A DNA stretch of 64,000 bases from an uncultured cyanobacterium (lineage in GTDB: Bacteria > Cyanobacteriota > Cyanobacteriia > PCC-6307 > Cyanobiaceae): assembly GCA_903917565.1 (NCBI GenBank), contig CAIXBB010000001.1, positions 310,001 to 374,000 on the forward strand, written 5' to 3'. A program made the translations under genes and the position numbers. This document shows, piece after piece, positions 50,139 through 53,065 of this stretch. The notes beneath the pieces were generated by a model that had not been told where the DNA came from, made no database searches, and saw only the letters and a list, made by a program, of their open reading frames with translations. Position 1 is the first letter of the stretch, and each line of letters begins with the position of its first letter.

Positions 50139-50819
50139 TCAGGCGGCCCCCCTCTGGGCTCTTGGGAGCTTTGGGGAAGGGTTCCAGGGGATGATGGCGC
50201 CCTCGGCCACAAGCCAGAGCGCCTCCCCCGGTGGGCAGGGGTGGCCTCCCGTCAAGGCGCCGAAGGACGGCAGCACCAGTTGTTCCAGCGCCTTGTCGTA
50301 GGCGAAGCAGGGCAACCGCAGCCGGTCGGCGCCACGGCCCACCAGGGCCACCGGATGGCGATGGCCGCAGACATTCAGCCTGCCTGCTCTGGGCTCCGGG
50401 GCATGGCTCAGCCACAGGGGGCCCATGGCCAGGGAGGGCTCCTGGACGAGCCCCTCCAGCCAGCTGCCCCGCTCGTGATTGCCGCCGACCAGCCTCAGGG
50501 GACAGCCCAGCAGGGAGGGCAGGGCCGCCAGTTTCTGGCGCAGTTCCTCGGTGAGCCCGAGGCGGCTGTGGATCAGGTCGCCGAGCACCACCACCTGGCG
50601 GGGCTGGAGCCGGTGGGCCACCGCCAGCAGAGCATTGAGCGTGGCGGCATCACCGTCGCTGGGCAACGGGATGCCCTGGCACTGAAAGGATTCCGCCTTG
50701 CCGAGGTGCAGGTCGGCCAGCAGCAGCAGCCGCTGCTCCGGATCCCATACGGCTTTCTCGGCCCGCAGCTCCAGGCGGTGGCCCCGCCAGGGGAAGGCAG
50801 CGGCGGCAGGAGCGTTCAC
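50139..50819 (-). CDS. pdeM: Ligase-associated metallophosphatase PdeM
   Basis: 226 residues from the GTG at 50819 (MNAPAAAAFPWRGHRLELRAE). Calcineurin-like motifs are LLLADLHLGKAES, VVVLGDLIHSR, LVGGNHERGS and VCGHRHPVAL. The PdeM family is usually found with an ATP-dependent DNA ligase and an Lhr helicase; here neither is adjacent. The longer open frame (to 51011) is not supported. It is convergent with the CBS gene. Confidence 0.82.
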   Translation of the reverse strand: MNAPAAAAFPWRGHRLELRAEKAVWDPEQRLLLLADLHLGKAESFQCQGIPLPSDGDAATLNALLAVAHRLQPRQVVVLGDLIHSRLGLTEELRQKLAALPSLLGCPLRLVGGNHERGSWLEGLVQEPSLAMGPLWLSHAPEPRAGRLNVCGHRHPVALVGRGADRLRLPCFAYDKALEQLVLPSFGALTGGHPCPPGEALWLVAEGAIIPWNPSPKLPRAQRGAA

Positions 50820-50929
50820 GCCGGCGGCTTCGGGGCGCCGTAGAGGGTGACGGACATGGCGCGATCGAAGGGCGAACTGGAACCCTGGCATTCTCTCCGC
50901 CCAGACTCTCTTCAGCGAGGCGCTCCCCG

Positions 50930-53065
50930 ATGACGTCCACCCAGCCGGATGCGGCAGCGAACGCCAGGGCCTGCCTGCTGCGGTTGGCGCCCTTCCTGCT
51001 GGGCCGGGCACGGCGTGGGGTCGTCGGCAGCAGCCGCTACGCCCAGAAGCTGCGGGAGGCGATCCGCGACGCCGCCGCCGATGTCGCAGCCGGGCCCGTT
51101 CTGATCAGCGGCGAACCGGGTCTGGAGAAGGACAACGTGGCAGCCCTGATCCATTTCGGATCGGCGGCCCGCAAGCAGCTGCTGGTGCAGCTCAACTGCG
51201 CCCTGCTGCGGGCCGATGGGGCCGAGCTGTTCGCGGCCGGGGCCGAAGGCGTGGCCCTGATCGACTGCCTCGGCGCCGGCGGCCTGCTGCTCGATCAGAT
51301 CGATCAAGCCGATCCCCAGCTGCGGCGGACCCTGCTGGAGCTGGCGCGCAGCGGTCGCTGGATCTCGCCCGAGGACGGCCGGGAGCATCACTTCCCTGGA
51401 CGGGTGTTCCTCACAGCTGAAGCCACGACTCCCGACTTCGATGCCTGCTGCTCCCACATCCGGGTGCCGCCCCTGCGGGTGCGGCGTCAGGACCTGGGCG
51501 AATGGTTGCGCTATGGGGTGCGCCAGAAGGCCCGCAGCCTGGGCTGGGCCACGCCCCCCACGGTGAGTGAGGGGCTGGTCAAGCGGCTCCAGATCCACGA
51601 CTTCCCGGGCAACATCCGCGAGCTCAACCTGGTGATCGAGCGGGCCCTGCGCCAGTGCGCTCCCGGCCATCCCGCCGTCCTGCCCGATGAGGTCTTCTGG
51701 ACCGGGCGTCGCTCCCAGCGGGCCCGTTTCGATCTCTGGCGCTGGAAGCCCCAGCTGCGGGACGCGATGCGTTCGCCGCGGCTCTGGAACGGCCTGCTGT
51801 TCGGCGTCGTGAGCTGGGTGTTCGTGCTGGTGAACCTCTGGCTCTGGTTCGGTCCCCAGGATCGGGATCACAACGGGGCCCTGAACCTGTTCTGGGCCTG
51901 GTGGTGGCCGCTGATCCTGCTGACGTACCCGGTTGTGGGCCGGCTGTGGTGCTCGTTCTGCCCCTTCATGGTCTGGGGGGAGATCACCCAGCGGCTGGCG
52001 AGGGCGCTGGGCTGGCAGCCGGCGCGCTGGCCGCGGGGCGAAAGCGACGACTGGGCGGCGCCGCTGCTGGCGGCCGGCTTCGCGGCGATCCTGCTCTGGG
52101 AGGCGGTGTGGGATCTGGAGAACACCGCCTGGCTGAGCAGCTGCCTGCTGCTGCTGATCACCCTTGGTGCCGTGATCGGTTCGCTGCGTTTCGAGAAGCG
52201 CTTCTGGTGCCGCTATCTGTGCCCGGTGGGGGGGATGAACGCCCTGTTCGCCAAGCTGTCAATCAGCGAGCTGCGGGCCCAGGCGGGCACCTGCAGCGGC
52301 AGCTGCACCAGCTACGCCTGCTTCAAGGGAGGCCCCGCCGAAGGGGAGGGCATGGAAACCGAAGGCTGTCCGCTGGGCACCCATCCGGCCTACCTGGCCG
52401 ACAACCGCAATTGCGTGCTGTGCCTCACCTGCGCCCAGGCCTGTCCGCACCGTTCCGTGCAGCTGCGGTTGCGGCCGCCCGCCGCCGATCTGCAACGCGA
52501 CATGGAGCCTCCGGCCGGCGAGGCAGGCCTGATCCTGGTGCTGGCCGGTGGGGTGTGTCTGCATCATTGGCGGAGGCTGCTTGGCAGCGTGGCCCTGGCG
52601 CCGCAAAGCCTGGCCGAAGGCCCCTTGCTGCCGCGGCTGGCCTTCGCGGCCCTGGCCCTGGCCCTTCCGGCGGGGGCCTTCCTGCTGGTGCGCCACCAGC
52701 GGGGCTGGGGACGCCGCCCGGAGGTCGCCGCCTCGCGGCTGCGGCTTTCCCTCTACGCCCTGCTGCCGCTGCTGTGGGCCCTGATGCTGGCCGACCATCT
52801 GCCCCTGGGCATGGCGGAGGCGGGGCTGGTGCTGCCGGTCAGCGCCAGCCCATGGTGGCCCCAGCTGACCTCCCGCTTGCCCGGCTGGAGCGCCGACCGG
52901 CACGTGATCGCCTTCTGCCAGAGCCTGGTGGTGGCAGTGGGTGTGGCGGGTTCTGTGGTGCTGCTGCGGCGACTGCTGCAGCCCCTGCGCTGGGGCTGGC
53001 TGGCCCTGGGGTGGCTGGCGCTGGGGCTTGGGGCCGGTGGCCGCTGGCTGGTGGTGGCGGGCTAA
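50930..53065 (+). CDS. AAA+ (sigma-54-activator-like) domain fused to membrane polyferredoxin
   Basis: 711 residues. Residues about 30-260 look like the AAA+ core of bacterial enhancer-binding proteins: a Walker A-like SGEPGLEKDN (60-69; the second Gly of GxGK is Glu), a Walker B-like GGLLLDQID (117-125; the catalytic Glu is Gln), and PGNIRELNLVIERAL (226-240). The GAFTGA sigma-54 contact loop is absent. From about 285 on there are about eight membrane helices with paired Cys (CSFCP at 341-345, CRYLCP at 427-432) and a 4Fe-4S motif CVLCLTCAQACP (495-506), as in NapH/CcoG-type proteins. No DNA-binding domain is visible. It looks like a redox sensor or a maturation factor. Confidence 0.83.
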   Translation: MTSTQPDAAANARACLLRLAPFLLGRARRGVVGSSRYAQKLREAIRDAAADVAAGPVLISGEPGLEKDNVAALIHFGSAARKQLLVQLNCALLRADGAELFAAGAEGVALIDCLGAGGLLLDQIDQADPQLRRTLLELARSGRWISPEDGREHHFPGRVFLTAEATTPDFDACCSHIRVPPLRVRRQDLGEWLRYGVRQKARSLGWATPPTVSEGLVKRLQIHDFPGNIRELNLVIERALRQCAPGHPAVLPDEVFWTGRRSQRARFDLWRWKPQLRDAMRSPRLWNGLLFGVVSWVFVLVNLWLWFGPQDRDHNGALNLFWAWWWPLILLTYPVVGRLWCSFCPFMVWGEITQRLARALGWQPARWPRGESDDWAAPLLAAGFAAILLWEAVWDLENTAWLSSCLLLLITLGAVIGSLRFEKRFWCRYLCPVGGMNALFAKLSISELRAQAGTCSGSCTSYACFKGGPAEGEGMETEGCPLGTHPAYLADNRNCVLCLTCAQACPHRSVQLRLRPPAADLQRDMEPPAGEAGLILVLAGGVCLHHWRRLLGSVALAPQSLAEGPLLPRLAFAALALALPAGAFLLVRHQRGWGRRPEVAASRLRLSLYALLPLLWALMLADHLPLGMAEAGLVLPVSASPWWPQLTSRLPGWSADRHVIAFCQSLVVAVGVAGSVVLLRRLLQPLRWGWLALGWLALGLGAGGRWLVVAG

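Follow-up and report, generated by a model that had tools for sequence, protein, structure and literature searches.

Transcriptional activation by NtrC-type AAA+ proteins requires the GAFTGA motif, the arginine fingers and the Walker B glutamate. Among membrane polyferredoxins, NapH/MauN proteins (TIGR02163) have two Cys-Pro motifs, paired at the membrane face, and a ferredoxin loop with eight cysteines. In the window, a 64,000-nt stretch from an uncultured cyanobacterium of the family Cyanobiaceae, a gene on the plus strand (50930..53065) brings features of both together: it encodes, in one continuous and uninterrupted reading frame, a 711-aa pseudo-AAA+/membrane polyferredoxin fusion for which relatives were found, and the AAA+/polyferredoxin fusion noticed in the original prediction is confirmed. 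It is highly probable that the gene product is a pseudo-AAA+ domain fused to a real membrane Fe-S protein. With sigma-54 activators (NtrC, PspF, FleQ, NtrX) it has in common the fold, the P-loop lysine, the PLRxR and GNxREL motifs and the lid domain. Unlike them, it lacks the Walker B glutamate, the GAFTGA motif and the arginine-finger loop, has the sensor I asparagine replaced, carries no DNA-binding domain, is fused to a membrane protein and is encoded in a genome without sigma-54.

The NtrC/PspF-type AAA+ domain as a whole comprises residues 30-262, of which the sigma-54-activator-type core takes up residues 30-182 (51017..51475, plus strand) and the lid residues 183-262 (51476..51715, plus strand). 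Pfam matches were found to Sigma54_activat at residues 32-137 (28.7 bits; cut-off 20.2) and to AAA_lid_14 at residues 183-244 (32.9; cut-off 27). The AlphaFold2 (AF2) model of this domain, with a pLDDT of mostly 82-95, resembles FleQ, NtrC1 and PspF at Z scores of 17-19 over approximately 225 residues; the VIA-align match to FleQ (6jdi) gave a Z score of 18.8 and an rmsd of 3.1 over 226 residues.

The motifs GEPGLEKDN, LLDQID and FPGNIREL are present as originally described, and GAFTGA and a helix-turn-helix (HTH) domain are absent; the Pfam scan found no DNA-binding domain in the window protein. A census of 126 family members, with subfamily A or B assigned from the P-loop pattern, showed which residues are kept. 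In the altered P-loop GEPGLEKDN (residues 61-69; 51110..51136, plus strand), which is the usual form in subfamily A, that of the window protein, K67 is invariant (126/126), and position 66 is glutamate in 101 of 113 subfamily A members and glycine in all 13 subfamily B members. The Walker B remnant LLLDQID (residues 119-125; 51284..51304, plus strand) has its catalytic glutamate replaced, and none of the 126 members has this glutamate. At the sensor I region, TAEA (residues 162-165; 51413..51424, plus strand), the asparagine is replaced by Glu164, found in 113/113 subfamily A members. By comparison, the sensor II motif FPGNIREL in the lid (51602-51625) is intact, with N228 (the sensor II asparagine), E231 and L232 present in every member.

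Two loops are missing altogether. Alignment with L129, a canonical activator of the same phylum with two AAA domains, showed that the sigma-54-contacting L1 loop, which carries GAFTGA, is deleted in every aligned member, and that approximately 11 residues, corresponding to the arginine-finger loop, are missing in all of them before the RVPPLRVRR motif (residues 178-186; 51461..51487, plus strand). The reference protein itself (G321:C44, 1090-3111, minus strand), with its two tandem sigma-54-activator AAA+ domains, comes from another class of the phylum.

The altered motifs are not due to chance, since GEPGL.KD and RVPPLRVRR.DLG-type motifs, along with the cysteines, are conserved across relatives with 60-79% identity and the altered motifs are kept phylum-wide over the 126 members. 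Moreover, dN/dS between close pairs lay at 0.12-0.38 in the AAA+ half and at a similar 0.09-0.33 in the membrane half, so both halves are under constraint. The AAA+ residues are thus neither random nor unconserved but under purifying selection, and a degenerate pseudodomain was rejected on the basis of motif conservation and dN/dS. The proposal that an activator module was reused in an Fe-S fusion is supported, but its suggestion that ATP hydrolysis might "drive" the relay is not, because no member has the catalytic glutamate, the L1 loop or the arginine-finger loop. In addition, phosphate binding should be weaker with E66 in the P-loop, and the AAA+ domain may therefore bind no nucleotide.

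The genomic background agrees with the general lack of sigma-54 in cyanobacteria. No rpoN match was found in the window genome, in a search with positive controls including E. coli and Caulobacter, and only two matches above the cut-off, one of them clear, were found across 291 sampled Cyanobacteriota genomes. Absence of rpoN, conservation of the altered motifs and fusion to a membrane Fe-S protein all support reuse of the activator-type module outside sigma-54 transcription. Even though family sequence and fold are those of AAA+ proteins, it is extremely improbable that the protein works as an ATP-driven remodelling motor or activates sigma-54, given the loss of the catalytic glutamate and of both loops together with the lack of HTH and rpoN; on the same grounds an active sigma-54 activator was rejected.

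The membrane part (residues 283-709; 51776..53056, plus strand) has about nine helices in two AF2 models, not about eight as first counted, and contains a Pfam Fer4_5 match (34.5; cut-off 22). Of the cysteine motifs as originally read, the NapH-type pattern of two Cys-Pro membrane motifs plus eight ferredoxin cysteines is present, and all 12 cysteines are invariant across the 126 members, but the first pair, C341/C344 (51950..51964, plus strand), at the predicted cytoplasmic end of helix 2, forms a CX2CP and not a CX3CP motif. A CX3CP motif is formed by C427/C431 (52208..52225, plus strand). The remaining eight cysteines, C455, C459, C464 and C480 followed by C495, C498, C501 and C505, lie in a loop (52292..52444, plus strand) with weak Fer4 matches, modelled by AF2 at low confidence; their spacing (C455-C459-C464...C480P and C495-C498-C501...C505P) would fit a 2[4Fe-4S] ferredoxin with an insert. 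All 12 cysteines are predicted to be on cytoplasmic loops provided that the N terminus lies inside, which agrees with the positive-inside rule.

NapH/MauN matches residues 329-512 with an E value of 9e-11, at a score (approximately 42-43 bits) far under the curated NCBIfam cut-off of 213. The window family differs from NapH/MauN in having CX2CP as one of its two Cys-Pro motifs, a long insert in the first ferredoxin motif and five additional C-terminal helices. The cupric reductase group CcoG/RdxA/FixG shares only the general type of a membrane [4Fe-4S] polyferredoxin; there was no match to this family in the profile scans, and oxidase-assembly neighbours are absent. Foldseek, VIA-align and HMMER found no solved structure matching the membrane half, although a missing match does not amount to a new fold. 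Two more membrane proteins with Fer4_5-type motifs, apparently without AAA+, are encoded elsewhere in the window genome (L170, G000:C43; L171, G000:C33).

Matches to the protein were found in 104 of 386 sampled Cyanobacteriota genomes and, in the family Cyanobiaceae, in 61 of 151 genomes. The fusion is kept across cyanobacterial families and is in a single frame in about 50 of the 61 positive Cyanobiaceae genomes. Separately translated halves were rejected, as relatives are mostly single-frame and only three frameshift-type splits were found (G340, G490 and G255); the two pieces of each are in different frames, and the domains themselves are parted by the break in G340 alone. Outside the clade of the window protein, most members are 840-880 aa long because of an extra N-terminal cNMP-binding-like domain, matched above the cut-off by the cNMP_binding (CRP-type) model in those of this length that were scanned. 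The window protein has no such domain; it was lost in its clade and is also absent from a few others. In a midpoint-rooted tree, group B, with a canonical GxGKT P-loop, was monophyletic (13 rows, 100/100), and the remaining group A, which includes the window protein and in which GEPGLEKDN is the usual P-loop, has its picocyanobacterial part on a long branch.

Gene context differs between the two groups. In Cyanobiaceae the gene adjoins a PdeM-like phosphoesterase gene, and several relatives have helicase- and ligase-like frames downstream that look like a ligase-associated repair cluster, all names being read from the sequences and not from a family scan. In the window, the PdeM-like gene is at 50139-51011, beside the fusion gene; by eye, together with the downstream frames of L011 and its kin, it resembles a split ligase-associated DNA repair cluster. 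Beyond Cyanobiaceae, group A has no neighbours that are shared between families. The window subfamily was present in 39 of 45 genomes with NiFe hydrogenase (Fisher P 2e-14); since this association vanishes within genera g8 and g10, it was read as genome size or phylogeny, and a functional link to the hydrogenase was rejected. A link to cytochrome bd was also rejected: all 10 cyd-bearing Cyanobiaceae genomes have the gene, yet the window genome, which has it, is without cyd.

In group B, cysteine synthase (cysK) is adjacent to the gene in 10 of 15 loci, and selected loci are surrounded by genes for SQR-like, HdrB/C-like, rhodanese, ArsR, CydB, psbA and persulfide-dioxygenase-like proteins according to family models, several of them below curated cut-offs. 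On Pseudanabaena and Aulosira plasmids with a group B gene, psbA, a second cytochrome b6f Rieske protein and cysK are annotated. Group B thus lies in apparent sulfide/low-oxygen islands with SQR-like, CydAB, rhodanese, ArsR, psbA or HdrB/C-like genes (L136, L137, L139, L144, L149, L150, L152, L156, L157 and others). Cyanobacteria are known to respond to sulfide with psbA variants and with its oxidation by SQR, which feeds the quinone pool (PMC8002359). One further group B copy (L151, G464:C29; 17663-18280 of its contig) is fragmentary, has in-frame stops and lies approximately 2 kb from a NiFe hydrogenase large-subunit gene.

These surroundings could also indicate a redox sensor, in which the Fe-S clusters respond to oxygen, sulfide, NO or the redox state of the quinones and the output comes from the AAA+ (and cNMP) domains through protein-protein contact and not through DNA. 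Both the activator and the cNMP domain are modules of signalling proteins, the sister clade lies in sulfide/low-oxygen clusters with ArsR-type regulators, and the lack of a DNA-binding domain suits such an output. Twelve cysteines on a nine-helix membrane domain are, however, more than a sensor needs, and no conserved partner to receive the signal was found for the window subfamily; we regard a sensor as unlikely, though as the strongest of the alternatives.

Relatives of the membrane half without AAA+ could point to metals. Such standalone proteins, FtrD-like or named "4Fe-4S binding protein", were found in Deinococcus (31%), haloarchaea and Azospirillum; relatedness extends to the C-terminal helices (LYxLLP-type motif) in Deinococcus and haloarchaea, and within a small plasmid sample the fusion occurred only in cyanobacteria. 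They differ from the window protein in having neither an AAA+ nor a cNMP domain and, in some, in a metal-transport context that is absent at the window gene. The Azospirillum relative adjoins an FTR1 family protein and an "iron transporter", and the Natronorubrum relative has metal transport genes nearby. In Deinococcus (L158, 4027-4953) the gene that overlaps the start of the polyferredoxin gene encodes a His-rich protein that is apparently secreted and matches no Pfam family, which suggests that this pair is metal-related.

The only possible named member of the cyanobacterial family is slr0593 of Synechocystis, which, judging from its name, we take to be perhaps an orthologue. This gene, encoding a "cAMP binding membrane protein", falls on iron deprivation (PMC3516471). 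Together with the standalone relatives, it could speak for a function in reducing metals or in helping their uptake, comparable to that of the cupric reductase CcoG or of FtrD, a polyferredoxin of ferrous iron uptake. Such a function is nevertheless improbable for the window protein: no metal transport gene lies beside it or is conserved near its relatives, FTR1/P19 iron-uptake genes being absent next to the gene among both window ORFs and conserved neighbours; moreover, the Azospirillum protein shows weak similarity (23%), and the orthology of slr0593 is putative.

Taking into consideration both halves, we infer that the AAA+ domain of a sigma-54 activator ceased to work as a motor and turned into a regulatory module, which may bind nucleotide, on a membrane Fe-S relay. 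That the protein is a membrane electron relay controlled by a catalytically dead AAA+ domain has, with the gating, roughly an even chance of being correct. Electrons would be exchanged between a cytoplasmic donor or acceptor and the quinone pool, or some other partner in the membrane, by way of two [4Fe-4S] clusters and of the CX2CP/CX3CP sites at the membrane face. The AAA+ domain would bind a nucleotide or other ligand and not turn it over, and could switch the electron flow on and off, together with the cNMP-like domain in proteins that have one. Such a gated relay is supported by the conserved fusion, the motif census, the dN/dS of both halves, the fold match to FleQ, NtrC1 and PspF, the absence of rpoN, the predicted cytoplasmic position of the 12 cysteines, the NapH-type match and the quinone-linked genes adjoining the sister clade (SQR-like oxidoreductase, CydAB, HdrB/HdrC-like). 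Against it are the neighbours of the window subfamily, which are not conserved between families, E66 in the P-loop and the missing structural match for the membrane half. A role for quinones is suggested by the NapH resemblance and the group B neighbours and is less well founded for group A.

Non-hydrolysing P-loop proteins can serve as scaffolds, and the AAA+ part could accordingly help to load Fe-S clusters or mature a partner enzyme. With no Fe-S assembly gene nearby, no hydrolysis machinery and no specific evidence, such an assembly factor is very improbable. Extending the gated relay to its history, we tentatively propose, at somewhat less than even probability, that the AAA+ domain left transcription at an early stage of cyanobacterial evolution, lost its catalysis and is now a ligand-binding gate, controlled by nucleotide, energy charge or cyclic nucleotide, on a quinone-linked Fe-S relay, with one branch serving sulfide/low-oxygen life.

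A motor domain whose known function depends on sigma-54 thus survives, conserved and joined to an electron carrier, in a phylum without sigma-54. If electron flow is indeed gated, many cyanobacteria would possess a previously undescribed control point that links energy state to membrane redox, and sulfide-tolerant ones would gain, with the sister clade, a component not assigned before; a ligand gate would be a new way of controlling electron flow in cyanobacterial membranes. The domains are already known, but no published description of the family was found in the open-licence literature, and the terms AAA, NapH and polyferredoxin do not occur in a 2026 review of redox signalling in cyanobacteria. 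Database names are generic ("cyclic nucleotide-binding domain-containing protein") or, as with "nitrogen assimilation regulatory protein", misleading for this family.

The species-genome scan confirmed 517 relatives, and nearly all of the 80 kept are labelled Cyanobium, Synechococcus and kin. One contig among these 80 is filed as Bifidobacterium (L017, Bifidobacterium breve); it carries a cyanobacterial gene at 76% identity, and its bin label looks wrong, as does that of L070, filed as Prochlorococcus marinus MIT 9215, where the gene was found at 59% identity.
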